In this document: positions 2,783-48,004 of the stretch, piece by piece
Layout of the letters: the number at the start of each line of letters is the position of its first letter
Position numbering within the stretch: the stretch's first letter is position 1
Origin: a virus
Reading direction: 5' to 3' (one strand)
IMG/VR virus record: IMGVR_UViG_3300031257_000001
Coordinates: 40,327-104,326 of that record
Length of the DNA stretch: 64,000 bases
Notes under the pieces: generated by a model
What the model was told of the DNA's origin: nothing
Databases searched by the model: none
The model's input: only the letters and a program-made list of their open reading frames with translations
Made by a program: the position numbers and the translations under genes

Positions 2783-5098
2783 ATGGCAGTTCGTAGGTTC
2801 GGCCCGACTCGCGGCGCAGGTACACGGATTGAAGAGCAAGAGGGCGACAAGACCATCACCCCCGGCGCTCTTGGTTTTACTGGCTATGCCGGCATGTTCG
2901 AGAAGGGGCCTGTTGGGGCGATGAAGATTTGCACCACCAAGGCTGAATTCCTCAAGTGGTACGGCGGTGTCATCGACGAAAGCCTGGCGCCCGATTCGGC
3001 GCTGGACTTCTATGACTTGGCCAACGGCGCTGGTGGGATTGTTCTCATCAGGGTGACGGATGGCAACGAAGTGGAGTCAGAGCTGACTCTGTACGCTCGG
3101 GACGCTGATGACAACATTCCCATGGGCAAGGTGACCGCCAAGAACGGCGGCCGTTGGGGTGGCCGCGCCAAGGTGCTGGTGGGCGACCTCGACAGTTCTG
3201 GCGACCTGACGAATACGACGCTACAGCTGGGCGCCGCCATCGCCGCCAACTTCACCACCGATGAATGGAAGGACGCATACATTGGGTTGGACGCGGTGGC
3301 CAACGAGCGTTACCCGGTGATTGGTAGCACCAACACGGGGCTCCTCACCGTTGCCGCAGACCAGAAGATGCTGGACGATTGGAATGACGCGGCCGTCCCG
3401 ACCAACCTGCGTTTCTACGCGATGTTGGAGGACAACGGGCGCAACATTGCCGTCAGGATCGATGACGGTGAAGAGGACAGCTCCGGCCAGTTCAGCTTGG
3501 AGATATTCCTGGACGGAGTGCCTGTCAAGAAGTACGGCAATCTCCATACGGACCCGACCCATGCGCGCTACTGGGTTGAGGTCATCAACAGCGACCTCGG
3601 GAACGCATGGATTGACGTGGAGGACCTGTTCACGGGCGCACACACAGCCAGCACGCGCGCGGCCAACTTCTATGGCGCTTCGGTTTCCGTCACCGCAACC
3701 AAGCTGGACATCGATCTGCGCAAGCTGCAGCTCAACTGCCCTTCGGGAGCCGTCCCGACGTTGGTCATGGGGACCACCATCGCTGAGCACATGGCGCAGG
3801 TGTTGACGCTGACCATGACCAGTGCCTCTGACTTCACAGTTGTGTCCGATAAATTCGGTGCAATTGGATCTGGAACGTTGGGGGTGGAATTCTTGACGGC
3901 AGTTCCAACCTTCAACAAGTTCGTTCCGCCATTCACGATGGACAACGGTACTGGCTCACTGGCCTCCGGCGACATCATCGCCGTTCACTACGTCCCCTTG
4001 CCTGCCAACGACCTCGTGGGTGGCAGACTGTGGCCTGACAAGCCGAACTTCTCGCTGGATGAGTTCAGAATCGTCGCCAACGATCATGAGAGCGTCACGG
4101 TCGCCCCGGGCGCAGACCTCACCGCTCTCGCGACTCCGGGCGATGAGTACATGATTGCAGCTCCCATCCCGCTGGTGAGCGGTCGCGATGGGAACGCGGA
4201 TGTGTTGGACACTGACTACGAGGACCAGGCGTGGGACACCTCGGACAGTCCGTTCAACGACATCGACGGCAAGAACTTGGGCTTGGTTAAGTTCGGCACC
4301 CCCGGCGTCACCTCCACTTCCGTCCAGAAGGCCGGTGTGGCCTACGCAGAGGCCAAGAATCACCAGTACAGGGTGGAGGTGCCAGCAAACGTCACGACCG
4401 ACAACGGCGCGTTGTCGTACATCAACGACACCATCGGGCGCTCCGACCACAGCGTGGTCAGCTTCCCGTCCTATGGCAACGTGCCCGACCCGAACCCTGA
4501 AGCACAGCGCGAGGGCAGAACCAAGCTCACCACTGCCACTGGGATGATCCACGGCCGCGAAGCCTCCATGGTGCGTGACTACGAGGGTTATCACAAGGCG
4601 GCAGCCGGCGTGGATGCCACGTTGCCCAAGCTCTTGGCCATCCCGACCGGCGACCGCAAGTTGGATGAGGAGCGCCTGAACCCGGCAGGGATCAGCATCA
4701 TCAGGAAGGTGCGCGGTGGCTTTGTCATCTGGGGCGACCGGACCCTGAACCGCGACCCCAATTGGAAGTGGAAGCACCAGCGCGAGCAGATGTCGTACTA
4801 CGAGCATGTGCTCCAGGAAAACTTTGATTTCATCATCTTTGCCATCAACGATCCTGACACTGATCGCTTGGCAGAGACCACGCTGGTTGCATTCTTCCTT
4901 CCCGAGTTCGTGAAGCGAGCGTTGCGCGGCGACACGTTCCAGGCAGCAGCCATCATCAAGGTGGATGAAGAGCTCAATATGAACGCCACACGGGACGCCG
5001 GCGACCTCTATGCTGAGGTGTCGCTCCGACTCGCGGACACGGTGGAGCGGTTCATCATCCGCATCGGCAAGCAGGGCATTTTCGAGCAGGTGGCATAA
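2783..5098 (+). CDS. Contractile tail sheath protein
   Basis: 771 residues, preceded by TAGGAGATGA. The N-terminus has the sheath pattern of a basic lead, a G-F-x-G-x-A-G-M-F-E-K-G-P-V-G motif and an alternating alpha/beta region giving GIVLIRVTD near residue 90. The C-terminal part (about 590-771) holds the conserved sheath domain with WGDRTL, WKWKHQREQMSYYEHVL and a final MNATRDAGDLYAEVSLRLAD-like stretch. It polymerises around the tail tube and contracts at infection. Its presence sets the myovirus morphotype. The long insert at 150-500 is probably a surface-exposed variable domain. Confidence 0.92.
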   Translation: MAVRRFGPTRGAGTRIEEQEGDKTITPGALGFTGYAGMFEKGPVGAMKICTTKAEFLKWYGGVIDESLAPDSALDFYDLANGAGGIVLIRVTDGNEVESELTLYARDADDNIPMGKVTAKNGGRWGGRAKVLVGDLDSSGDLTNTTLQLGAAIAANFTTDEWKDAYIGLDAVANERYPVIGSTNTGLLTVAADQKMLDDWNDAAVPTNLRFYAMLEDNGRNIAVRIDDGEEDSSGQFSLEIFLDGVPVKKYGNLHTDPTHARYWVEVINSDLGNAWIDVEDLFTGAHTASTRAANFYGASVSVTATKLDIDLRKLQLNCPSGAVPTLVMGTTIAEHMAQVLTLTMTSASDFTVVSDKFGAIGSGTLGVEFLTAVPTFNKFVPPFTMDNGTGSLASGDIIAVHYVPLPANDLVGGRLWPDKPNFSLDEFRIVANDHESVTVAPGADLTALATPGDEYMIAAPIPLVSGRDGNADVLDTDYEDQAWDTSDSPFNDIDGKNLGLVKFGTPGVTSTSVQKAGVAYAEAKNHQYRVEVPANVTTDNGALSYINDTIGRSDHSVVSFPSYGNVPDPNPEAQREGRTKLTTATGMIHGREASMVRDYEGYHKAAAGVDATLPKLLAIPTGDRKLDEERLNPAGISIIRKVRGGFVIWGDRTLNRDPNWKWKHQREQMSYYEHVLQENFDFIIFAINDPDTDRLAETTLVAFFLPEFVKRALRGDTFQAAAIIKVDEELNMNATRDAGDLYAEVSLRLADTVERFIIRIGKQGIFEQVA

Positions 5099-5125
5099 TC
5101 AGAGCCGCCAGGGAGTGACACGACC

Positions 5126-5590
5126 ATGAGAGCAATTCTGAAGCGCAGCCTGGGAGAGGGCGGTTCATTCATCGGCGACTCGCACGGTGATGACAACCTG
5201 TACGATGTGCTCAAGGCACTCGCCTTGGCAGCGTGCGAATCGGTGGACGTCCTGCAAGCGACACCCTCGGCCGCGGTGATTGCCAGCAAGCTGATCAAGG
5301 AGCCCACGAGGCTGTCCGGGTTCGGCATCAGCCTCGGCACCACAGGGACCGTGTCGGGGACCACGACCGTCATCGTCAACAAGAATGGCACGCCATTGGT
5401 GGGCGTCACGCTGTCCATCGCCTACACCGAGGACGATGGCACGTCAAAGTTCCTGTCGGCTGACGACTTCGGTGACATCGACTTCGATCAGGGGGACATC
5501 CTCACGATCGAGACCACAGTGGCGACATCCACTGGCCCGGCAAACCTGTTGGCCACTGCCGAACTCAACCCCATCAAGGTGGAGGCGTAA
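5126..5590 (+). CDS. Small virion protein between sheath and tube genes, beta-rich
   Basis: 154 residues with SD AGGGAG upstream. The first half is helical and the second half (from about residue 80) is a run of Gly/Thr-rich beta-strand sequence resembling an Ig-like or beta-sandwich fold. It sits between tail sheath and tail tube genes, so a virion role such as a decoration or tail-associated protein is likely. No family recognised. Confidence 0.6.
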   Translation: MRAILKRSLGEGGSFIGDSHGDDNLYDVLKALALAACESVDVLQATPSAAVIASKLIKEPTRLSGFGISLGTTGTVSGTTTVIVNKNGTPLVGVTLSIAYTEDDGTSKFLSADDFGDIDFDQGDILTIETTVATSTGPANLLATAELNPIKVEA

Positions 5591-5648
5591 GCCGAAATCC
5601 ACCCTGCCGGAGGCTTCCCAAGGCTGACCTGCCGATTGGAGACACGAG

Positions 5649-6086
5649 ATGAAGGGCGAGATCCAACCAGACCACATCCCGCTGAACAAGTATGAGTTCC
5701 TGGTCATAGGACTCATTCCACTGACGGCCGTGGAGGTCAGCGGCATCGAGGATGAGCTGGAGACCACCCAGCTGCCCGATCGCACCGTCGCCTCCGGCGG
5801 GAACCGCGGACCCACCGAGTTCGAGCTTACCATCCCGATGCACCACCAGACGGAGCGCGCCGCCATGGAGGTGTGGTTCAGGGAAAGCCAGGACCCGGTG
5901 CTGCCGACATACAAAAAACCCTGCACGCTTCTCCACAAGAGCATCAGCGGCGCCACCACGTGTTCATACACGCTCGTGGGGGTGTTCCCCAAGAAGCGGG
6001 CGCTGCCTGATTTGGATAAGGCGAACGAGGGCGAGCTGGCGAACGTGGTATGGACCATGTCAGCTGACGACGTGTTCCCGCTGTAG
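5649..6086 (+). CDS. Tail tube protein (gp19-like)
   Basis: 145 residues, the usual length of gp19-type tube proteins. It begins KGEIQPDHIPLNKYEFLVIG and shows the typical ELETTQLPDRTVASGG loop followed by FELTIPMHHQTER and a C-terminal SADDVFPL, as in tube proteins that form stacked hexameric rings inside the sheath. The leader CCGATTGGAGACACGAG carries a GGAG site and resembles the leader of the next gene, also CGCCGATTGGAG. A small inverted repeat follows the stop. Confidence 0.85.
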   Translation: MKGEIQPDHIPLNKYEFLVIGLIPLTAVEVSGIEDELETTQLPDRTVASGGNRGPTEFELTIPMHHQTERAAMEVWFRESQDPVLPTYKKPCTLLHKSISGATTCSYTLVGVFPKKRALPDLDKANEGELANVVWTMSADDVFPL

Positions 6087-23777: not shown

Positions 23778-24064
23778 AGTGGCTACTGCTGGCAGCATTG
23801 CTCTGTGCCTGTCGTCCAGTCTACAATCCTACAGACCCGCAAGACGTAGACGGTGGCGGAGCGTCTGATTGCGCAGCCATGTGTTCCACGCTCGAACAGC
23901 TTGGCTGTGACAAGGAATGGGGAATTGATCCTGAAGACGGTCCGTGTCTCGAGTGGTGTACTGCACGTGAAAGTGATCCGAAGTCACCAACAATGTGCCC
24001 TGCACAAGTGGCCAAGGCGACAAGTTGTAATGAGGCCAACCAACTCAGCCAATGTGGGGATTGA
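23774..24064 (+). CDS. Small Cys-rich predicted lipoprotein
   Basis: 96 residues, start overlapping the protease stop (ATGA). Signal MKWLLLAALLCACRP gives a lipobox with the modified Cys at about residue 13. The mature part has several Cys (CAAMC, LGC, PCLEWC, MC, SC, QC), suggesting disulphides in the periplasm. Could be an outer-membrane spanin or an envelope-modifying lipoprotein. No family recognised. Confidence 0.6.
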   Translation: MKWLLLAALLCACRPVYNPTDPQDVDGGGASDCAAMCSTLEQLGCDKEWGIDPEDGPCLEWCTARESDPKSPTMCPAQVAKATSCNEANQLSQCGD

Positions 24065-24100
24065 TCAGCTCGTAGCTGGAAGACACACTATCTTAGCTGA

Positions 24101-26632
24101 GTGATCAAGCTACGCTTGGACAACCGCTGGGTCTACATCACCGGCGCTCCGCGCTCCGTCATCCGCGAGTTGGAGTCCATCACGAGCTATCGTGTGGCGG
24201 GCTTCATGTTCGCGCCGTCCTTCAAGAGAGGGCACTGGGACGGCAAGGAGCACCTGCTGCGCTTCAGCAGCAAGCGCGGATACCACGCGCCCCGAGGACT
24301 CGTCACCGACATCGCCCGGGCTCTTCGGGCTGAGGGGCATCGGTACACGGTCGAGCATGTCCACGCTCCGCTGCCGGAGCGGCGCAAGCTGGTGTGGGAG
24401 TCCAGCGTGGTGATGCGAGGATACCAGGATGAGGCGATCAACGCCCTGCTGGCACCTCCTGTGCGCGGCAGTGGGGTGTTGAAGATGCCCATCAGGAGCG
24501 GCAAGACCAAGATGGCCGCCCGGCTCATCCGCAGGATCGGCCAGGCCACACTGTTCGTGGTCCCGTCCAAGTCACTCCTGTACCAGACCCGGGAAGCCCT
24601 CGCTGAGTGCTTCCCGTTGGAGACCATCGGCCTCATCGGCGACTCCGAGCACGATGAGCAGTTCATCACAGTCGCCTCCATCCAGACATTGGCGATGTGG
24701 CGCGAGGGCGGCCGCTGGAAGATGATGCGGCCTGCCAAGAAGCAGGAAAGCCGCGTTGCGTGGCTGGAGGAGCACGGCTGGGAGCCGTCGGGCGAGCTGT
24801 GGCGCAAAGGTCGCATCAAGCCCGTGGCGATCGTCAAGGCCATCGAGCGTGAGGCGAGCGACCGCGAGGCAGAGCGGAAGGCCACTGTCAAGGCCAAGTA
24901 CAAGGGTCTGCTCAAGGCGTTCCCTCTGCTCATCCTCGATGAATGCTTTATTGCAGGAACGTTAGTTGACGGGAGACCTATCGAGAGCATTGCTGTCGGT
25001 GACATGGTTGCTGCATTCGACAACAACGGCACCACATCCCAACGACGAGTAACCCGGACATTCAAAACGGTTCCATCCAGCCTTGTTCGCATCCGATTCA
25101 ACGACGGAAGGACCCTGACTTGCACGCCAGGGCATCCCTTCTTCACCGCTTGCGGTTGGGTGAAGGCTTGCGAGCTGAGGCCTGGATCGGATATGGTGTT
25201 AAGCACCAATGCTAAAGTGCACGACCTGCGGACGGGAATTGGACTCGGAGAACGTTCCTGCTCATCGTTTGGAACGATGGAAGAAAACCGGAAGAATCTA
25301 CTGCAAGACAGCTTGCGGCCGTGCATACACCGGGAAGGTGACCCGAAACTCACCCCACCTACGCTCCCAGGAGGTGCGGGAGGCTTCATCGAGGCGAATG
25401 AAGGAGAGCAACCCGATGCGCTCGGAGCATGTGCGTGCCAAAATGGCAGCTTCGCTGCGTGCTCGTGGCCATTCTCCCAATTGGACCAAGGGCGGGAACG
25501 GACGGCCACTACCAATTGCACAAGTGGTCCTTGCAGCTGCTTTGGGATGGGAGACAGAATGCGTTGTGAAGACGGGGAATCCGTCACGTGGAGTGGATCG
25601 AATGGTCGGGATTTCGTCTTGTTACAAGCTGGATGTTGCCAACTCGACGCTGAAGCTCGGAATCGAGCTAGACGGCCCCTCGCACCACACTCCGAAAGCA
25701 CGTGTGTTGGACAAAAAGAAAACCGACTTTCTGAGTGGGATGGGGTGGACGGTGTTGAGGTTCTCCAACCGGGAAGTGACAAACGATTTGGAGGGTTGTG
25801 TCCGGACGGTTTTGTGTACAATCTCGAAGTTGAAGGACTCCACACGTACATAGCCAACGGCTTGGCCGTCCACAACTGTCACCACTACCGGGGGACCGGC
25901 GAGTGGTACAAGGTCCCGCATGAGTTCGACAGCAGGTTCAAGGTCGGCCTGTCGGCCACCGCCTATCTGGACAACAGCGTCGAGCAGGAACGCGGGATCA
26001 TCTGGCTGAAGGCGACGTGCGGACCGATCCGCTGCGACATCCCGATGAGCCGTCTCATCGCGGACGGATTCTTGATGAAGCAGCACGTCAGGATGTTCCG
26101 CGTGACCACCCCCAACCTCAATGGCCGGAAGTGGAGCGCGACGATGCGCCGGCAAGCCATCGTGACCAACCGCCGGCGCAACGCGATAATCGTCATGTGC
26201 GCTGCCAAGTACGCCGCAGAAGGACGCCGCATCGCCATCATCGCCCGGCTCCACGAACACATCGGGATCCTGTGCGAGGCGATGGATGAGGCCGGGCTGG
26301 AGTATCGCACCATCACCGGGCATGACGACCAAGAAGCGCGCGAGGACATCGTTGACGGGTTGGTCAGAGGGGACTACCATGTAATCATTGGAACCGTCAT
26401 CGGCGAGGGCGTGGACATCCCACAAATGGAGGTGGTCATCAATGCGGAAGGCGGCAGGGATACCAAGTCCACTGTGCAAAGGCAACGCAATCTAACCATC
26501 AACAAGGGCAAAAGGCAGGCGGTATTGGTTGACTTTTTGGACGAGACAAACGACCATCTGCGAAAGCACTCCGAGGCCCGGTTGGAGGTGTACCGCAGCG
26601 AGCCAATGTTCCAGATTGACCTGGTGGGCTAG
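24101..26632 (+). CDS. SF2 DNA helicase (UvsW-type) interrupted by an intein
   Basis: 843-residue precursor. Exteins of 281 and 251 residues join to a 532-residue helicase: N-terminal UvsW-like domain, motif I KMPIRSGKTKM (about 128), LFVVPSKSLLYQT (Ia), motif II LLILDE|CHHY, motif III GLSATAY, and a C-terminal RecA-like domain with VINAEGGRDTKSTVQRQRN. The intein sits between E and C of the DECH box, so the unspliced protein cannot hydrolyse ATP. Start is GTG 24101 with no SD. A -10-like TATCTT (24089-24094) just upstream would give an almost leaderless mRNA. Role: branch migration and replication/recombination repair. Confidence 0.85.
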   Translation: MIKLRLDNRWVYITGAPRSVIRELESITSYRVAGFMFAPSFKRGHWDGKEHLLRFSSKRGYHAPRGLVTDIARALRAEGHRYTVEHVHAPLPERRKLVWESSVVMRGYQDEAINALLAPPVRGSGVLKMPIRSGKTKMAARLIRRIGQATLFVVPSKSLLYQTREALAECFPLETIGLIGDSEHDEQFITVASIQTLAMWREGGRWKMMRPAKKQESRVAWLEEHGWEPSGELWRKGRIKPVAIVKAIEREASDREAERKATVKAKYKGLLKAFPLLILDECFIAGTLVDGRPIESIAVGDMVAAFDNNGTTSQRRVTRTFKTVPSSLVRIRFNDGRTLTCTPGHPFFTACGWVKACELRPGSDMVLSTNAKVHDLRTGIGLGERSCSSFGTMEENRKNLLQDSLRPCIHREGDPKLTPPTLPGGAGGFIEANEGEQPDALGACACQNGSFAACSWPFSQLDQGRERTATTNCTSGPCSCFGMGDRMRCEDGESVTWSGSNGRDFVLLQAGCCQLDAEARNRARRPLAPHSESTCVGQKENRLSEWDGVDGVEVLQPGSDKRFGGLCPDGFVYNLEVEGLHTYIANGLAVHNCHHYRGTGEWYKVPHEFDSRFKVGLSATAYLDNSVEQERGIIWLKATCGPIRCDIPMSRLIADGFLMKQHVRMFRVTTPNLNGRKWSATMRRQAIVTNRRRNAIIVMCAAKYAAEGRRIAIIARLHEHIGILCEAMDEAGLEYRTITGHDDQEAREDIVDGLVRGDYHVIIGTVIGEGVDIPQMEVVINAEGGRDTKSTVQRQRNLTINKGKRQAVLVDFLDETNDHLRKHSEARLEVYRSEPMFQIDLVG
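24944..25876 (+). mobile_element. Intein in the helicase DECH box, with an out-of-frame endonuclease
   Basis: 311 residues in the helicase frame. Splicing residues are Cys1 (CFIAGTLV), block B TCTPGHPF, and the C-terminal VYNLEVEGLHTYIANG then AVHN followed by Cys+1. Only about the first 90 and last 30 residues look like an intein in this frame. The 200 or so residues between are Cys/Gly/Ser-rich and read like an out-of-frame translation, while the +1 frame there encodes a recognisable endonuclease (25209-25853). The helicase frame nevertheless has no stop. Confidence 0.88.
25209..25853 (+). CDS. DUF559/VSR-like homing endonuclease in the +1 frame inside the helicase intein
   Basis: 214 residues from ATG 25209 (no clear SD). 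Starts with a zinc-type CTTC...YCKTAC region, followed by a basic NUMOD-like stretch (SSRRMKESNPMRSEHVRAKM) and a C-terminal nuclease domain of DUF559/very-short-patch-repair type: KLGIELDGPSHHTPKARVLD, KKKTDFLSGMGWTVLRFSN, DLEGC. The Glu-x-Asp-Gly and Lys residues fit the PD-(D/E)XK-like core. The ORF runs past the intein block F in a different frame. Translation could be by internal start, or the frame may reflect paired frameshifts. Confidence 0.75.
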   Translation: MLKCTTCGRELDSENVPAHRLERWKKTGRIYCKTACGRAYTGKVTRNSPHLRSQEVREASSRRMKESNPMRSEHVRAKMAASLRARGHSPNWTKGGNGRPLPIAQVVLAAALGWETECVVKTGNPSRGVDRMVGISSCYKLDVANSTLKLGIELDGPSHHTPKARVLDKKKTDFLSGMGWTVLRFSNREVTNDLEGCVRTVLCTISKLKDSTRT

Positions 26633-26691
26633 CGTGTGAAACCATTCCACGCTACCTTACACACTGCCGGCGATTCCCCCTCACGGCCCAC

Positions 26692-26733
26692 AAGGCAGCC
26701 ATGACTACCCCAGGTTGTGGCTGCCTTTCATTT
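26692..26733 (+). terminator. Probable rho-independent terminator after the helicase gene
   Basis: Perfect 10-bp stem AAGGCAGCCA / TGGCTGCCTT with a 16-base loop, followed by TCATTT. It lies 60 bases after the helicase stop and before the initiator gene, and is the clearest terminator-like structure in the window. The T-tract is interrupted, so termination may be partial. Confidence 0.65.
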
Positions 26734-26778
26734 GGGTGCCCGTCAGCGCTTTTCGGCCTGCCTGTGTAGGGCCGTCCC

Positions 26779-28335
26779 ATGAAGTCGAAAGCGCACCCAC
26801 GTGAGTATCAGGGCGACGGCCCGGTTTCAATCCCAACTGCCTACTGCGAGCTGAGCAAGCGCGCGTTCGCGGTCTGGGTCAGGTTGATGGCTGAGTCTCC
26901 CGAGGTTCTGCTGACAGGGAGGCATCGCCTCGCAGAGTTGTTGAGCTACTCACAGCGCCGGTTCAGCGAGGTGCTTCTGGAGCTTGTGCGCAAGGGGTAC
27001 GTGGGCGTGATCCCTCCCGAGCGAGTGGGCCTTGTCACCCAAATTGTGTTGCGGCGCCGTGCAAAGATCAACCAGAGGACGGGGAACTGGTTCAGGCTGG
27101 GAAACTTGCTGCTGCAAGGCGACCACGAGTGCATGTGCAATCAACAAGAAACTGGCCCAAAGTTTACACAGACCCAAAGTTTACACAGACCGAAACCAAA
27201 GTTTAGTTGGGCTGATCCAAACTTTAATTGGACCCATGGCATAAAACCGGGAGAAGTGGTGTGTAAAAAGGTACCAAGGGAAACCAGTTCTTGTGTAGAG
27301 GGTGGATCTTGCAGTCACAAAAGTGGCATTTGTCCAGACAAAAGTGGCAATCTCACAAACTGGGTCCAACTAAACTTTGGATTAGTCTGTGTAAACTTTG
27401 GAAGTCCCAGAGTCGTTGGGAGTGTGGTTCTTGTGGAGTCCATAGATTATTGGAATACGCAAGGCGTCAAAAAGCTTCCCGACGGAAACTCTTGCCACAT
27501 GGCAGCCATGATGCTTTCTGGTGTTAAAAAACGCCGTTTCGTGGCTGGCACGAAAACACAAACAAAACGAACCACCTTAGAGGTAGATAGGCTTAGAGAA
27601 GCTAAGGAGAAGGAGAAAGAGAAACGTAGGCTCTCTACCCGAGCGAAGCGAGGGTTCTCAAAGCAGCGACGTGGCAAGGGTGTTGATTGGGCAAAGATAG
27701 ACCTGATGGGGGACCCTGTCGTGAGCTTCGAGCCCGGCGACCGCGAGCGCCCTCGTGTTCTTGAGGTTCTGTCCCGGAGGGCTCGCGACCCGGAGCGAGT
27801 CAGGCTCGTGGCAAAGCTGGAACGCGAGTTCTGCCGCATCTACACCCGGTACAGGCGACAGGCGGAGCGCGACCTCACCGGCTCGACTGATTACAATGAG
27901 GTGTGGGAACAGGAACGGAAGTTGGCCGCCCGGGCAGCCATCCTCTGCATCCAGAAGGGAACAACGCCAACCAGGCTCATCCGCTACTGGCACAAGGCCA
28001 TCCGCGACTTCACAGACTTGAAGATTCCAACACTGCGCTTCCTGGCCAGCCCGGCGAACGTGGACCGGGCCGCCTGCGCAGAGATCAATATCGATGACGC
28101 CAAGGACAAGCCTCCGGCCGGGAACAGCTTCAGCGCGGTCTGTGGTCTCGATGTACGATTGAGGCCGGAGCTTGAACGCGCCGGGTTCGACACCAGGCCG
28201 TACAACGACCGCTTCATGCTGGGAATCCAACACAATGCGATGGCGATAGCGCAGGGCAAAGACATCTTCATGGCGAAGGGTCGCGTGAGGGATATGGCGG
28301 TGTTCGCAGCGGAGAATCTGTTCAATGAGGAGTGA
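26779..28335 (+). CDS. Replication initiator-like protein with internal origin
   Basis: 518 residues. N-terminal winged-helix-like domain (about 15-95: SKRAFAVWVRLM, RLAELLSYSQRRFSEVLLELVRKGYVGV) as in phage O-type and DnaT-like initiators. Residues about 125-260 are low-similarity linker, encoded by an AT-richer iteron cluster (27156-27401). The C-terminal part (about 320-518) is helical and charged and may bind the loader. It is followed by loader, DnaB-like helicase and primase genes, the same order logic as lambda O-P. The embedded repeats support origin binding by this protein. Confidence 0.65.
   Translation: MKSKAHPREYQGDGPVSIPTAYCELSKRAFAVWVRLMAESPEVLLTGRHRLAELLSYSQRRFSEVLLELVRKGYVGVIPPERVGLVTQIVLRRRAKINQRTGNWFRLGNLLLQGDHECMCNQQETGPKFTQTQSLHRPKPKFSWADPNFNWTHGIKPGEVVCKKVPRETSSCVEGGSCSHKSGICPDKSGNLTNWVQLNFGLVCVNFGSPRVVGSVVLVESIDYWNTQGVKKLPDGNSCHMAAMMLSGVKKRRFVAGTKTQTKRTTLEVDRLREAKEKEKEKRRLSTRAKRGFSKQRRGKGVDWAKIDLMGDPVVSFEPGDRERPRVLEVLSRRARDPERVRLVAKLEREFCRIYTRYRRQAERDLTGSTDYNEVWEQERKLAARAAILCIQKGTTPTRLIRYWHKAIRDFTDLKIPTLRFLASPANVDRAACAEINIDDAKDKPPAGNSFSAVCGLDVRLRPELERAGFDTRPYNDRFMLGIQHNAMAIAQGKDIFMAKGRVRDMAVFAAENLFNEE
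27156..27401 (+). other. Candidate replication origin: iterons and inverted iterons inside the initiator gene
   Basis: CCAAAGTTTACACAGAC occurs twice in direct tandem with a 17-base period (27157-27173, 27174-27190), then CCAAAGTTTAGTTGG (27196-27210) and a variant CCAAACTTTAATTGG (27217-27231). About 140 bases on, CCAACTAAACTTTGG (27366-27380) and GTCTGTGTAAACTTTGG (27385-27401) are exact reverse complements of the third and first iterons. Between them ACAAAAGTGGCA appears twice 21 bases apart (27317, 27338). The layout, inside the initiator gene and AT-rich, resembles lambda ori within O. Confidence 0.72.
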
Positions 28336-41637: not shown

Positions 41638-42035
41638 AGGAGCTCAGGAATTGGGCGCGGGGCGAGGACATCGCCGGGCTGCCGGAGCAGTCTGTGCGGA
41701 CTTCGCCATCCCAACGAGAACACCCCGGGCGAGTCAAGATGCTGGAGCGTTTGGAACAGCTGAAGCTCCAAGCGCGGACCGCCGGCGGACAGCAGACGGG
41801 GATGTACAAGATCAGCACGGGCGGCGACGATGCTTTGATCAAGTTCGGGAAGCACGCCGGGAAGGCGTTGTCAGTGATCATGGATGAGGATCCGACCTAT
41901 CTGGCGTGGATGCTTCGTGATGACGATGACGGCCAGCCTCGGTTCGATTCCGTCTTGCTTGATGTGGTGAAGTATGTACAGGAATCCCACTGGAAGAAAG
42001 CGCGTGAAGAGCGCGCAAAGGGGCGCCGGAGATGA
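41625..42035 (+). CDS. Small protein with ExoX C-terminal-like FGK motif
   Basis: 136 residues. The C-terminal half contains IKFGKHAGKALSVIMDEDP and YLAWMLRDD, the F-G-K-x-x-G...P-x-Y-L-x-W motif seen in small domains beside exonucleases (ExoX C-terminal/DUF3820 group) and phage replisome proteins. The N-terminal half is basic linker. Overlaps the DnaE start (ATGA), so probably a polymerase accessory. Confidence 0.55.
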   Translation: MPTLKELRNWARGEDIAGLPEQSVRTSPSQREHPGRVKMLERLEQLKLQARTAGGQQTGMYKISTGGDDALIKFGKHAGKALSVIMDEDPTYLAWMLRDDDDGQPRFDSVLLDVVKYVQESHWKKAREERAKGRRR

Positions 42036-45000
42036 GCAAGCCTGACGACATCGTTCACCTCCACGTCCACAGCGACATGTCCAATCTGGACGGCTGCGGC
42101 AAGATTCCGGACTATGTGGCCGCGGCCAAAGCCAGAGGTCACCGGGGCGTCGCCTTCACCGACCACGGGACGATGCGCGGGTACATGACCCAGCACGAGC
42201 AGTGCAAGGAGCACGACGTCAAGCCCGTCTATGGCCTTGAGTTCTATGTGTCTCCTGACATGCGGAGGCGTGGGCTCACCGAGGATGAACGGGCGGACAT
42301 CACCCGGGACCTCCCCAAGTCAGAACACAAAGCTGCCATCAAGAAACATGAGGAGCACGCAGGGATCCGCGACCGTTGGCACCTGACCGTTTGGGCCCTC
42401 GATCAGGTTGGTCTGCAGAATTTGTACAGGCTCTCATCCGCGGCGTGGATTGAGGGGTTCTACTACAAGCCACGCATCGACCTCGATGAGCTGATCAAGT
42501 ACGGCGTAGGGTTGGCGGTCGGCTCCGGCTGCTTGGCGTCGCCCATCAACGACTGCTGGGTGTTGGGTAGGCAGAAGCAAGCGCTGGGGTACGCCGATCG
42601 GTTGGCGGATGCGTTCGGCGACAGGCTGTACCTGGAAGTCATGCCACACGCCATTCGGGATCAGCGCCTTGCCAATGGGCTGATGCTCAAGCTCCGCAAG
42701 CGGTACGGCAGCCGGGGTGTTCGCTTGCTCGCAACTCAAGACGCCCACTATGTGGAGCAGGCAGACGCTTGTCACCACGAGGTTCTTCTGTGTATCGGGA
42801 CCAACTCCATCCTGAGTGACCCAGAACGCTTCAAGTTTGATGGCAACGAATTCCATTTCAAGACGCGCAAGGAGATGATTAGGAGCTTCCGGCGGAACCA
42901 TGAGTTCATGCCAGACAGCGCCATCCGAGAAGCGTTGAACACCACGCTGGAGCTTGCGGAGCGCGTGAGTGCCAAGGTGGAGGTGGACTACCACAAGGCG
43001 TTGCTTCCTGATTCAGGCATCCCGGCAAAGTGTGATGGCAACGCATTTGCCTATCTGCGCGATTTGTGTCTGGACGGATGGAAGTGGCGTGAGATTCCCA
43101 AGCGCGCGGCCGCCTATGCCGCCGTCCACGGAGTCAGCAAGCCAGAGGCGCTGGCCATCTACCGCGACAGAATGAAGTACGAGATGGGCGCGCTGGTCCG
43201 CCAGAGGTTTGTGCCCTACTTTTTGATGGTTCACGACATCTACCGCTTCGCACGCGAGGCACACATCATGACCGGGCCCGGGCGCGGCTCGGTTGCCGGA
43301 TCGCTTGTTGCCTACTGCTTGGGGCTTACAGCTGTGGATCCCATTGAGTTCGGCTTGATCTTCGAGCGCTTCATCAACCCGGACCGCATCGACATGCCGG
43401 ATGTGGACATGGACTTCGAGGACAGGCGCCGGTCTGAAATCATGGACTATTTGCGCGCCAAGTACGGCGAGGACAAGGTGTGCCAGATCGCCACCATTGG
43501 GAAGCTGTCGGGGAAGCAGTGCATCCGCGACGTGAGCCGGGTCCTTCAGGTCCCACTCAACGAGGTGAACCAGGTCACAGCGTCGATCATCGAGCGTAGT
43601 TCAGGTGATGAGCGTGCCAGTCAGACCATTGAGGACAGCTTCCAGGAGTTTGCAGTGTGCCGTGCCTTCAACAAGCGGCATCCAGAAGTCCTAGAACACG
43701 CCCGCAAGCTGGAGGGGATGGCCAAGAACCTCGGGATACACGCGGCAGGCGTCGTGGCATCCCCGGTCCCGTTGACGGACCTTCTGCCGTTGGAGATCCG
43801 GAAGCACGACGGCCGCGACCTTGTGGTGAGCGCCGTGGATATGTACGGCGTGGCCTCGACTGGACTGGTAAAGCTGGATGTTCTCGGGCTCCGAACGCTC
43901 ACAGTGATCAAGGAGACGCTGGAGGCCATCGACCGGCGTCACGGTCGGCACATCGACATGGAATCCAGGGACATCGACCTGAACGATCCCAAGGTGCTAC
44001 AGGGATTCACCGACCACAACTTTGGAGGTGTGTTCCAGTACGACACGACCAGCGCGGCCGCGGTCTGTCGTGGCGTGAAGTTCGCCCACTTTGAGGATGT
44101 GGCCGCACTCACCGCACTGAATCGCCCGGGCACCTCCCGGTCGGGCCTCGCCACTGAGTACGTGAGGCGAAAGAAGAAACCAAAAGAGGCTGAAAAGGAT
44201 CATTTCCATCCGTTGGTCAGCAAGATCACCAAGGACACCCTTGGGATCATCGTGTACCAAGAGCACGTCATCCGCATCTTCATCGAGGTGGCAGGCTTCG
44301 CTCCCGGCACGGCTGACAGCCTGCGCAAAACCATTGCCAAGAAGATCGGCGATGAGGCCATGGGCAAGGAGCGCGAAAACTTCATCAGGGGCGCTTGGGA
44401 GCACTCCCGGGTGGACCGAGCCACGGCGGCCAAGATAATGGACGCGATCACTTTCTTCGGCTGTGTGCCATTCTGGACGCAAATCGCGATTCCGCTTGAC
44501 GGAGAACGCTCAATTGGTGTAACGGCTAGAACCTTGCCGATCGATCTGGTTCGACCGGGCGACGAAGTCTGGAGTGTGGACGAGCATTGGCGTTTGGTTC
44601 GGAACCGCGTCAAAAACGTGGTGGCGACAGGGCGAAAGCCGTTGTTCCGAATCGTCGCAAAGATACATGACGGCAACAGGAGGGTCACAGTCGAGGCTAC
44701 CGCTGGCCACTATTGGTTGCTCGTTTCGGGGAAATATGCAAAGACGGAACAGCTCAAGTCAGGCGACGTCATCGCGTATCGGAACCGAACGGCGTTGCGT
44801 GTCGATGTAGCGATCGTCCAATTGATCGAGCCGGTGGAGTTTGTCGGTGACGCAACCACTTATGATCTTGAAGTGGAGAACGAGCCACACAACTATGTCG
44901 CCGACGGATTCGTTTGTCACAACAGCTACGGATTCAACAAAACGGTCGGCCGGTCTGCGATGGTGTGGAAGGCCGGAGCGAATGCTAGCGATCCCAGGGG

Positions 45001-48000
45001 TCAAGTTTCAATAGGTGAAATTGCCGATAGGTGGAACGAGCGCAAGGATGGCACATGGTCTCCAATGGCTCGAAAATTGCGCTATGGCAGATTCAAAATC
45101 ATCCAGATGGATGAAGATGGGCGCTGTCGCCCAGCGCGCCTCATTGGAATCCATGATCACGGTGTCCAGCGCGTGTATCGGCTCAAGACAAAAAGTGGCA
45201 TTGAGACGCCGCCAATCAGCCGTAACCACCGTTTGATGACGTCAGAAGGGTACAAGTCCATAGCCACTGGACTCGGCCCGGGTGATGCGCTCTTGTTCAT
45301 GGGCGAGAACAAGGGCCATGATTATTGCTCCTGGTTTGCTGGCGGTGATAGGCAGTTTGCGCAGTCCGGTAGGGTGAATGACGCATACCGCGCGACGGTT
45401 GCTGCTGTTTGGAAGCGTGACGGTGGCAAGTGCTCCGAGTGTGGCGCGAAGTGCGAGCATGGGCGTGGCGGATCCGAGGTGGCCCACATCTGGTCGCCGG
45501 CCGAATGCGATTACAACAAGGCTCTTTTCCACTCTGAGGCAAATCTGCGTCTGTTGTGTAATTCTTGCCACAAGCGTCTTGACTATGAGAAAGGTGAGCG
45601 CCAAAGGCGATGGAGCAAGGGCAGACCGACATTTGCTGATGAGGTGGTTGAGGTCATCGATTCCGGCGAGGAGCATTGCTATGATCTTGAGGTGGACGCT
45701 CCGGGCCACAACTTCGTCACCGGGCCGGACGGAGAAACGCCGCCGGTCGTTTCCCACAACTCACACGCTACCGCATATGGCATGATTGCGTTCTGGTGCG
45801 TTCACGGGCAAACGCGATTGCTGGATTGGAGCAAGAAAGAGTACACCACGGTGGCACGTGCTTATCGGGAAGGCACAAGCATGATCGCTTGTTACGACGA
45901 ACGGACTGGGGGGACGATCGGCGGCAAAGTTAAGTGTGTGATTCGGACTGGCAAGAAGAAGGTATGGGAGGTGCGTCTGCGCTCCTACAAGACGCTTCGG
46001 TGTTCCTCTGATCACTTGATCTTGACGGACGAAGGATACAAGAAAGCGTCTTGCCTTCGCGTCGGCGATCTGGTCGCTTCGGAAAAGAGGCTTTCGCCTT
46101 CAAAGAGAGAATCTGTCAAGAAGAAGCTGCGACGCGCCGCGAAGGAACAATGGGCGGGGCTGTCTCCGGAGCAAAGAGCGTCGATGGTCTCCAAAGCGCA
46201 CGAGGCGTTGACGCCGGAATTTCGACGAGAGCACGTTTGGCGCGGCACAGCGGAAGACGGCCATAAGGTCTATTCATGGGGAGAGAAGTTGGTCGGTGAT
46301 TGGCTGTCGAGCCGTGGGCTGGAACACGAGACGCAACCTAGCGTCGGACGCGGCAAGCGAGCTGACTTCATTTGCCAAGGCGTGTACGTCGAATACGACG
46401 GGATGCGACGCGAAGAATCGTATTGGGAGGACAAATTCGGGGATCTGCCGTATGTCGTCGTTAAGCCGGGGGACGACTTGGACGATGTACTTTCGTTCTT
46501 GGTCGAGACGGGCAAGATCGTCGTCGGCGAAGAAGTCGCGTTCGAGCCGGTCGTCTTCGCAAGAAAAACGGAGCGCGTCGCGTTGATGTACGACGTCGTC
46601 ATGGAAGGCGAGCCGCACAACTTCCTGGCCAACAACATCGTCGTCCACAACTGCATGTGGCTCAAAACTTACTATCCTTTGGAGTTTTATTGGGCGTTGC
46701 TCAAGAACGAGCCTGACAGGCTTCGCATCCAGCAGTTCGCCAAGGACGCGAAGCAGCACGGCATCGCCCTCTTGCCGCCACACGTCAACGTGTCCGATGA
46801 CGTGTTTGCCATTGACGACGCCAGGACGGCCATCCGCGGTAGCCTCGTGGACATCAAGGGCGTGGGGAAGGCAGCTGCCAAGGCAGTCATCGCCAACAAG
46901 CCATACCGGAGTCTGCTGGACTTGGTGGACAGGGTTGAGCGCCGGGCCGTTCACCGAGGCGTCGTGGTCGCCCTCGCCTCCGCCGGCGCGCTGGAAGGGA
47001 TGCTACCCAACACCAGGCACTTCGTGGAGAACATCGACGCATGGTGGAAGGTGCTCACAGCCAAGGCCAAGCGTGCCAAGAAGTTGCGTGAACTTCTGGC
47101 TGCAGCGAGGGCGGAGCCGGACTGGCCGCCAGAGGACCGCGACCTGCTGGCGTCCCGGGTGAACCCGCTGGCGTTCGGCGCACACCCTGTAGAAGCCCAC
47201 CTCAAGGCGATTGGGCACCGTATCATGGTGCCTGCTGTCACGATGGCTGACGAGGACTTCTTCAAGCGCCACAACAGCAAGGGTGTGTACGTGATGGGGA
47301 TGGTCGTTGAGGTCAAGTACAACCAGATCGGCGACTTCAACACCGGAGAACTGCCCAGCGAGACCGAGAAGCGCCGGATGTTCTGGGGCAGCCGATACGC
47401 CAACATCAACATTGAGGAAAGGACCGGGACGCAGAACCGATTCAAGGTTGACTTCCACATCTTTGATGACCACCGGGCCATCGTGGACAAGGGTGTCGGG
47501 ACTCCGCTTGTGGCGTTCGCAACCCCAATGGCCTTCACAGGGACGTTCCGTGCCCACTTCTTGGTGGACATGGAGGTGCTCCGAGCCAAGCTCACATCCG
47601 GCGATGAGATGGATGTCTGGGAGAACATCGTTACCGGACGCCACCCGGCCCTCGTGTACCGCTGGGCATCGGAATCCGTCCGTGAGGAGCGCTCGACCAA
47701 CGCCAAGTTTGAAAAGTACGGTGGCCACTTCTGTGGTGTGGTCACACACATCCAGCCGAAGTATGACCGCAAGGGCGGGCTGATGGCCTACCTGGGATTG
47801 CTAGCCGGCGATGGCCGGTATGAGCGCGTGCTGGTGTTCGCATCGGTGTGGCAGCACATCAAGCGGAAGCTCAAACGCGGGATGCTAGTCAGGATGGAGT
47901 TGGAGCGTAAGCCGGATCGTGGTGGATGGACGTGCTTCTACAACGGCGGGCATGTCAAGTTCTACAACAGAAAGATTCCAGCCGCCACGCCGGCGGATGA

Positions 48001-48004
48001 GTAG
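42032..48004 (+). CDS. dnaE: DNA polymerase III alpha subunit (DnaE-type) with three inteins
   Basis: 1990-residue precursor; removing inteins of 154, 273 and 285 residues leaves 1278. N-terminal PHP domain (HLHVHSDMSNLDGCG, FTDHGTMRG). Palm: TGPGRGSVAGSLVAYCLGLT, catalytic DVDMDFEDRRRSEIMDYL (about 460), VKLDVLGL. The conserved fingers motif FGSYGFNKSHATAYGMIAFW is broken three times by inteins. C-terminal helix-hairpin-helix (VDIKGVGKAAAKAVIANKPY) and OB domain (RFKVDFHIFDDHR). A full DnaE in a phage is less common than family A/B polymerases. Main replicative polymerase. Confidence 0.92.
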   Translation: MSKPDDIVHLHVHSDMSNLDGCGKIPDYVAAAKARGHRGVAFTDHGTMRGYMTQHEQCKEHDVKPVYGLEFYVSPDMRRRGLTEDERADITRDLPKSEHKAAIKKHEEHAGIRDRWHLTVWALDQVGLQNLYRLSSAAWIEGFYYKPRIDLDELIKYGVGLAVGSGCLASPINDCWVLGRQKQALGYADRLADAFGDRLYLEVMPHAIRDQRLANGLMLKLRKRYGSRGVRLLATQDAHYVEQADACHHEVLLCIGTNSILSDPERFKFDGNEFHFKTRKEMIRSFRRNHEFMPDSAIREALNTTLELAERVSAKVEVDYHKALLPDSGIPAKCDGNAFAYLRDLCLDGWKWREIPKRAAAYAAVHGVSKPEALAIYRDRMKYEMGALVRQRFVPYFLMVHDIYRFAREAHIMTGPGRGSVAGSLVAYCLGLTAVDPIEFGLIFERFINPDRIDMPDVDMDFEDRRRSEIMDYLRAKYGEDKVCQIATIGKLSGKQCIRDVSRVLQVPLNEVNQVTASIIERSSGDERASQTIEDSFQEFAVCRAFNKRHPEVLEHARKLEGMAKNLGIHAAGVVASPVPLTDLLPLEIRKHDGRDLVVSAVDMYGVASTGLVKLDVLGLRTLTVIKETLEAIDRRHGRHIDMESRDIDLNDPKVLQGFTDHNFGGVFQYDTTSAAAVCRGVKFAHFEDVAALTALNRPGTSRSGLATEYVRRKKKPKEAEKDHFHPLVSKITKDTLGIIVYQEHVIRIFIEVAGFAPGTADSLRKTIAKKIGDEAMGKERENFIRGAWEHSRVDRATAAKIMDAITFFGCVPFWTQIAIPLDGERSIGVTARTLPIDLVRPGDEVWSVDEHWRLVRNRVKNVVATGRKPLFRIVAKIHDGNRRVTVEATAGHYWLLVSGKYAKTEQLKSGDVIAYRNRTALRVDVAIVQLIEPVEFVGDATTYDLEVENEPHNYVADGFVCHNSYGFNKTVGRSAMVWKAGANASDPRGQVSIGEIADRWNERKDGTWSPMARKLRYGRFKIIQMDEDGRCRPARLIGIHDHGVQRVYRLKTKSGIETPPISRNHRLMTSEGYKSIATGLGPGDALLFMGENKGHDYCSWFAGGDRQFAQSGRVNDAYRATVAAVWKRDGGKCSECGAKCEHGRGGSEVAHIWSPAECDYNKALFHSEANLRLLCNSCHKRLDYEKGERQRRWSKGRPTFADEVVEVIDSGEEHCYDLEVDAPGHNFVTGPDGETPPVVSHNSHATAYGMIAFWCVHGQTRLLDWSKKEYTTVARAYREGTSMIACYDERTGGTIGGKVKCVIRTGKKKVWEVRLRSYKTLRCSSDHLILTDEGYKKASCLRVGDLVASEKRLSPSKRESVKKKLRRAAKEQWAGLSPEQRASMVSKAHEALTPEFRREHVWRGTAEDGHKVYSWGEKLVGDWLSSRGLEHETQPSVGRGKRADFICQGVYVEYDGMRREESYWEDKFGDLPYVVVKPGDDLDDVLSFLVETGKIVVGEEVAFEPVVFARKTERVALMYDVVMEGEPHNFLANNIVVHNCMWLKTYYPLEFYWALLKNEPDRLRIQQFAKDAKQHGIALLPPHVNVSDDVFAIDDARTAIRGSLVDIKGVGKAAAKAVIANKPYRSLLDLVDRVERRAVHRGVVVALASAGALEGMLPNTRHFVENIDAWWKVLTAKAKRAKKLRELLAAARAEPDWPPEDRDLLASRVNPLAFGAHPVEAHLKAIGHRIMVPAVTMADEDFFKRHNSKGVYVMGMVVEVKYNQIGDFNTGELPSETEKRRMFWGSRYANINIEERTGTQNRFKVDFHIFDDHRAIVDKGVGTPLVAFATPMAFTGTFRAHFLVDMEVLRAKLTSGDEMDVWENIVTGRHPALVYRWASESVREERSTNAKFEKYGGHFCGVVTHIQPKYDRKGGLMAYLGLLAGDGRYERVLVFASVWQHIKRKLKRGMLVRMELERKPDRGGWTCFYNGGHVKFYNRKIPAATPADE
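44462..44923 (+). mobile_element. DnaE intein 1 (mini-intein, no endonuclease)
   Basis: 154 residues: Cys1 (CVPFWTQIAIP), block B VEATAGHYW, block F YDLEVENEPHNYVADG, terminal VCHN, then Ser+1. Inserted FFG | SYGFNK in the fingers motif. Length matches an intein without a homing domain. Confidence 0.9.
44942..45760 (+). mobile_element. DnaE intein 2 with HNH endonuclease and Thr at position 1
   Basis: 273 residues between FNK and SHATAYG. The first residue after the extein Lys is Thr (TVGRSAMVWKAG), not Cys or Ser. Block B is PPISRNHRLMT, followed by an HNH domain (KRDGGKCSECGAKCEHG, VAHIWSP, LRLLCNSCHKRLD), block F YDLEVDAPGHNFVTG and terminal VSHN|S. Boundaries follow from restoring the polymerase motif. 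Confidence 0.82.
45797..46651 (+). mobile_element. DnaE intein 3 with DUF559/VSR-like endonuclease
   Basis: 285 residues between MIAFW and CMWLKTYYP. Cys1 (CVHGQTRLL), block B LRCSSDHLILT, a nuclease domain in frame (YSWGEKLVGDWLSSRGL, GKRADFICQGVYVEYDGM, DLPYVVVKPGDDL), block F YDVVMEGEPHNFLANN, terminal VVHN, Cys+1. The codons (many TCG and GTCGTC) differ from the flanking exteins. Confidence 0.88.

Follow-up and report, generated by a model that had tools for sequence, protein, structure and literature searches.

Here we describe an intein whose nuclease gene lies in a second reading frame of the same DNA, in a stretch of 64,000 nucleotides (the window, by whose positions all features are numbered unless stated otherwise) taken from the 104-kb virus record IMGVR_UViG_3300031257_000001. 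A gene for a UvsW-like helicase carries the intein in one uninterrupted frame, and a DUF559-type nuclease gene overlaps the intein in the +1 frame. We consider it very probable that the phage helicase hosts a mobile homing intein, predicted to splice, to cut and to home, with its homing nuclease encoded by a separate gene that overlaps it. Elements of this layout form a real class, missed by genome annotation and kept by selection in about 100 related phage and bacterial loci.

The helicase precursor is a continuous open reading frame (ORF) of 843 amino acids with a GTG start and no internal stop (24101..26632, + strand, as are all window features below). It belongs to superfamily 2 (SF2) and matches phrog_16 DNA helicase (3.2e-50) and the Pfam families ResIII (3.5e-14), Helicase_C (2.4e-8), UvsW_N (2.7e-6) and Intein_splicing (8.4e-10), and the C-terminal end of the intein matches NCBIfam intein_Cterm (5.1e-8). 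The insertion point is motif II of the helicase (DE^CHH). The N-extein (24101..24943) ends in the LLILDE of this motif, the intein of 311 codons (24944..25876) runs from Cys1 at 24944 (DE/CFIAGTLVDG) to a terminal His-Asn at 25876 (ANGLAVHN/CHH), and the C-extein (25877..26632), which opens with the Cys-His-His of motif II and thus supplies Cys+1, contains the Helicase_C domain. GC content at third codon positions is 0.82-0.86 in the exteins (0.86 in the N-extein) versus 0.54-0.58 in the intein, consistent with an element of foreign origin.

All features of a class 1 intein are present, namely Cys1, a block B TxxH, the C-terminal His-Asn, Cys+1 and the Hint fold. AlphaFold2 (AF2) assembles a confident Hint fold from two separate parts of the intein frame, and Foldseek matches this model to the RecA and DnaB inteins. 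The N-terminal splicing part (residues 1-92, 24944..25219), with block B TPGH at ~25124-25135 and matches to Intein_splicing and PT-HINT, has a predicted local distance difference test score (pLDDT) of ~93-98 up to residue 80; the C-terminal part (residues 262-311, 25727..25876, VYNLEVEGLHTYIANGLAVHN) is defined by intein_Cterm, the alignment and the AF2 model. Between them the intein frame stays open (25220..25708) and its translation is predicted to be disordered, with a pLDDT of ~45 for residues 93-255, where the nuclease lies. Judging from its sequence, the intein is predicted to splice itself out of the helicase.

The overlapping nuclease (25209..25853, +1 frame of the intein) is a protein of 214 amino acids with an N-terminal CxxC...C...C cluster, and its ATG at 25209 is fixed by a stop two codons upstream. 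It matches DUF559 in Pfam (E 2.2e-12), its AF2 model is confidently folded (pLDDT 91), and it has both the profile and the catalytic residues of the EDxHD/DUF559 nucleases. Profile searches of the PDB return 3hrl (DUF559, 1.5e-13) and 3r3p (the catalytic domain of I-Bth0305I, 0.0065), which are also its best fold matches there by Foldseek (both E 6.8e-3). I-Bth0305I is an intron-encoded homing endonuclease. D142, E153, D155, H159 and D168 are invariant in the nuclease alignment and retained in the window nuclease; three of them (E153, D155 and H159), invariant in 55 aligned nucleases, lie in the motif ELDGPSHH (25665..25688). ORF listing, sequence and profiles thus agree with the original prediction, which had placed the intein at 24944-25876 and a DUF559-type nuclease with ELDGPSHH at 25209-25853 in the +1 frame.

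We then looked for related loci. A scan of viral contigs with the single nuclease sequence returned only 6 weak loci, and a scan with the nuclease alignment, used instead, identified 80 loci in IMG/VR and 44 in bacterial genomes. The loci were classed with hidden Markov models (HMMs) of the nuclease and of each intein end. In 96 of them, which form 74 clusters at 80% nuclease identity, a single continuous ORF contains both intein ends and the nuclease lies in +1; no locus has the nuclease in frame or a broken host frame. Eight further loci, in which one intein end is undetected or cut off, have the same layout by eye, giving 104 intein loci from Pseudomonas, Corynebacterium and Vibrio phages, IMG/VR contigs and bacterial metagenome-assembled genomes. 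One locus (L134) was left out for its different (HNH) nuclease. Three close relatives of the overlapping nuclease (L064, L101 and L105) occur with no intein detected. When each frame was compared by tblastn with isolate phage genomes, the two matched the same places, in every case with the nuclease shifted one base forward relative to the intein frame. The isolates with this layout are Pseudomonas phage MR14, Corynebacterium phage phi673 and Vibrio phages 1.088.O, K391, 159E43-1b, 104E43.1 and CP-T1. In all of the seven GenBank records checked, the helicase is annotated and the overlapping nuclease is not.

These loci bear on two alternative explanations of the layout. Indels near 25200 and 25850, introduced by sequencing or assembly, might have displaced a nuclease that is really in frame, which could account for the arrangement in a single metagenome contig. 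However, the same +1 relation is found in independently sequenced isolates (MR14, phi673, CP-T1 and others) and in 104/104 intein loci, which excludes indel artefacts. Alternatively, the helicase might be made as two trans-splicing proteins, that is, as a split (fractured) intein with a free-standing nuclease gene between its halves; fractured-gene inteins with a Vsr-like nuclease reportedly have the same parts. A fractured gene was rejected, the helicase of this locus being one continuous ORF rather than two; since all 104 loci have an unbroken host ORF that selection maintains, we regard a split intein as extremely unlikely. A group I intron was likewise rejected, there being no Rfam intron match in 24000-27000 and the host frame being open. 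The proposal that a splicing intein and a nuclease share one stretch in two frames is therefore borne out by every homologous intein locus, none of which has intein and nuclease in a single frame. The original prediction had also called this layout abnormal. It does differ from that of the canonical intein, in which the nuclease is in frame; it is nevertheless the rule for its family and not an oddity of one phage.

To what extent is each frame under selection? When synonymous codons of the window nuclease are shuffled, 5-8 stops are expected in the intein frame, and there are none. The probability of such an open frame is 0.0035 with the codon usage of the helicase, and no open frame arose in 20000 shuffles with the nuclease's own usage. 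An intein-frame stop forms where a T-ending nuclease codon precedes a codon starting with AA, AG or GA. Such stop-making codons are used at 0/34 positions in the window member versus 40/127 elsewhere in the ORF (p 1.5e-5), so that the openness of the helicase frame across the nuclease exceeds chance. Across the 74 cluster representatives, ~728 intein-frame stops would be expected if only the nuclease were constrained; we observed 0, with a median probability of an open frame of 6.6e-6 per locus. Stop-making T-ending codons number 0/2782 in these representatives versus 2817/7564 (37%) elsewhere in the same ORFs. The strong intein-less relatives offer a natural control, with 31 (L064), 19 (L101) and 25 (L105) stops in the corresponding frame.

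Changes between close pairs fall mostly at third positions of nuclease codons. By first, second and third position, the counts are 4:1:30 for 1.088.O/K391, 4:3:20 for 159E43-1b/104E43.1 and 23:18:72 for L099/L100 (pairs are given singly; summed counts contain some near-duplicate pairs). Purifying selection therefore acts on the nuclease, and the overlapping intein frame is largely free there except for the avoidance of stops. For most of nuclease columns 1-160, the intein frame is as conserved as the synonymous-shuffle null predicts; at columns 161-201 its conservation lies far above this null (mean z 3.9-12). Thus the intein-frame residues of the overlap ahead of this segment are conserved merely as a by-product of the nuclease, and the last ~40 nuclease codons are truly dual-coded, conserved in both frames. 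Here the same bases encode GLGWxVLRFSN...TVxSTISK in the nuclease and WxRVDSVEIxE...DGxVYNxEV in the intein; in the window, the segment (25707..25853) reads KKTDFLSGMGWTVLRFSN... in the nuclease and ...EWDGVDGVEVLQPGSDKRFGGLCPDGFVYNLEVEG in the intein, so that the nuclease does overlap the C-terminal splicing part, as had been proposed.

Could the nuclease instead be a decayed, frameshifted remnant, with the intein frame open by chance or through codon bias? The intein-frame translation of the overlap, mostly low in information and predicted to be disordered, would fit such a remnant. However, the nuclease frame is under purifying selection with invariant catalytic residues, nuclease starts carry ribosome sites, and only loci with an intein avoid stops completely. 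We consider decay very improbable.

Nuclease starts lie a median of 265 nt after the intein start, clustering at ~256-310 nt, right after the N-terminal splicing part, and stops lie a median of 29 nt before the intein end. A Shine-Dalgarno match of at least 5 nt precedes 29/73 nuclease starts versus 3.7% of 1258 control ATGs (p 2e-13). Programmed ribosomal frameshifting out of the helicase frame could in principle yield a fusion of the N-terminal intein part with the nuclease without a start of its own, and both the constant frame relation and a window start without a clear Shine-Dalgarno sequence would agree with it; yet the Shine-Dalgarno matches across the family and the clustering of the starts argue against frameshifting, which we judge unlikely.

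Nearly all of the inteins sit at DE^C of the Walker B/motif II of their hosts, which are ResIII and UvsW-type helicases, SNF2 proteins and DnaX/clamp-loader genes. Among Vibrio phages with helicases 85-89% identical, full, mini (nuclease-free) and empty alleles occur at one site. The full allele with the nuclease is found in 1.088.O, K391 and 1.027.O, a shorter nuclease-free intein in K459 (by sequence) and in K389 and 268E42.1 (by size), and an empty site in 141O35-1, 1.285.O, 1.024.O and 1.103.O. Nuclease identity can exceed that of the host genes (98 versus 89% in one pair, 64 versus 26% in L046/L075). Allele set and identity contrast are compatible with a homing cycle of cleavage and repair. 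A non-homing role, such as the exclusion of rival phages or defence, in which the intein would merely house the nuclease, is suggested by the free-standing relatives L064, L101 and L105, and DUF559 nucleases may have varied roles. This role appears improbable to us: almost all hosts, whether SF2, SNF2 or DnaX genes, share the DE^C insertion point, the coexistence of empty, full and mini alleles at one site agrees with a homing cycle, and the cutting of rivals' empty alleles would itself be a by-product of homing.

Three loci show further variants. In K459 (L147:2593-4674), the short nuclease-free intein at the same site is directly followed by a separate annotated endonuclease gene (4674-5972). 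The helicase of Vibrio phage 13VV501A (L146:2152-4653) apparently holds two inteins, of which one sits at Walker A (GAGK^C) and the other at motif II; both lack the overlapping DUF559 nuclease. A DnaX-type clamp-loader ORF (L071:1083-4067) seemingly holds two inteins as well, the second with a +1-frame nuclease.

We propose the following mechanism for a mobile homing intein with a separately translated nuclease. A ribosome would read the helicase frame straight across the intein, and the Hint domain (residues 1-92 and ~262-311, with an unstructured loop of ~165 residues between) would splice out, restoring the motif II DECHH. The same mRNA would be translated a second time in the +1 frame from the internal ATG at 25209, giving a free 24-kDa DUF559/EDxHD nuclease. 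This nuclease would cut at the motif II site of helicase genes that lack the intein, and repair would copy the intein in. Selection keeps stops out of the intein frame across the nuclease, and the ~40 terminal codons carry conserved protein in both frames. Several points weigh against this proposal. The search was seeded by the +1 family and could miss in-frame cousins, and ~30 weaker DUF559 matches, in which no intein was detected, were not classed individually. I-Bth0305I is only a modest fold match (Foldseek E 6.8e-3, probability 0.99). Finally, the absence of a clear Shine-Dalgarno sequence upstream of ATG 25209 makes initiation in the window member the weakest step.

A second overlapping layout is found in the same phage, outside the window. 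A MuF-like capsid/head protein (L002:178-3156, +; record G000:C1 ~25472-25648, ~25.5 kb) contains an intein whose DUF559 nuclease ORF lies antisense (L002:1309-2166, -), codons exactly opposed. Close reading of six phages (Salmonella STP-1, Pseudomonas BR313c, Mycobacterium Sejanus, Pantoea AH01, Gordonia Malisha and Cronobacter ES2) showed the same antisense layout. In the MuF-type set, whose intein ends were not checked individually, the antisense frame is open through the nuclease in 80/80 IMG/VR loci and no other frame is in any; TTA, CTA and TCA are absent from their 1562 Leu and 1257 Ser codons. Together with the sense +1 family and an HNH nuclease in a terminase intein, these MuF-type inteins (80/80 open) lead us to think that overprinted inteins are probably a general class, in which the nuclease is independently translated, either sense +1 or exactly antisense, and both frames are kept open by selection; a break in the host frame could have produced the split inteins of fractured genes.

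Other inteins were seen alongside these. In the terminase intein of Escherichia phage BUCT618 (L151:2407-4776, +), an antisense ORF (3127-3813) resembles, by eye, a NUMOD/HNH homing endonuclease. The MuF-like protein of Gordonia phage Sedona (L150:2053-5163, +) has an intein with an antisense DUF559-like nuclease (ORF 2953-4119). DnaE of the window (42032-48004) contains three inteins, the second seemingly with an in-frame HNH and the third with an in-frame nuclease-like stretch. A related nuclease had been claimed to lie in frame in this third intein; that relationship found no support, with a BLASTP E of 1.6 and no DUF559 match in DnaE.

The homing endonuclease of an intein is usually regarded as a domain fused to it in frame. 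Here the nuclease and the intein are separate proteins from one stretch of DNA, so that the nuclease could be expressed on its own schedule, independent of splicing, and the host gene could not lose the nuclease without disturbing an essential frame. The layout would also explain the long low-information middles of many phage inteins and suggests a route to split inteins, and the loci form a large natural data set on the selection that maintains overlapping genes.

The separate parts of this arrangement are known. An out-of-frame HNH without a splicing domain has been described (PMC11855218), and that article cites, on the subject of overlapping reading frames in phages, both bioRxiv 10.1101/2025.01.02.630785 (actinobacteriophage inteins, 'non-canonical architecture') and Gorbalenya 1998 ('Non-canonical inteins'). 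In the literature that we could consult, we did not find the conserved overlapping arrangement described for a true intein; bioRxiv 10.1101/2025.01.02.630785 and Gorbalenya 1998 may describe related layouts. ShiLan shares a mobile nuclease hidden out of frame within an open host frame, although it has no splicing domain and a different nuclease, whereas the carrier here has clear splicing domains and is a real intein.

With the canonical homing intein, in which a LAGLIDADG or HNH nuclease lies in frame between blocks B and F, the element shares the Hint domain with C1, TxxH and HN/C+1, a nuclease between the N- and C-terminal splicing parts, a conserved insertion site and a disjunct distribution. 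Unlike in the canonical case, the nuclease is in the other frame, has its own start, stays outside the intein protein and overlaps the C-terminal splicing part. The nuclease shares profile, fold and the residues D...EVDG.SH...D..K...GW.V.RF.N with the EDxHD (Vsr-like) homing endonucleases (I-Bth0305I, PDB 3r3p) and with DUF559; unlike that of I-Bth0305I, its gene overlaps an intein and encodes an N-terminal Cys cluster. Fractured genes, reportedly described by Dassa and colleagues in 2009 as split inteins whose halves flank a free-standing Vsr-like nuclease, likewise have a nuclease of this class as a separate gene between two intein parts. In contrast to these, the host frame here is continuous and cis-splicing is expected; the arrangement is plausibly a related or intermediate one.
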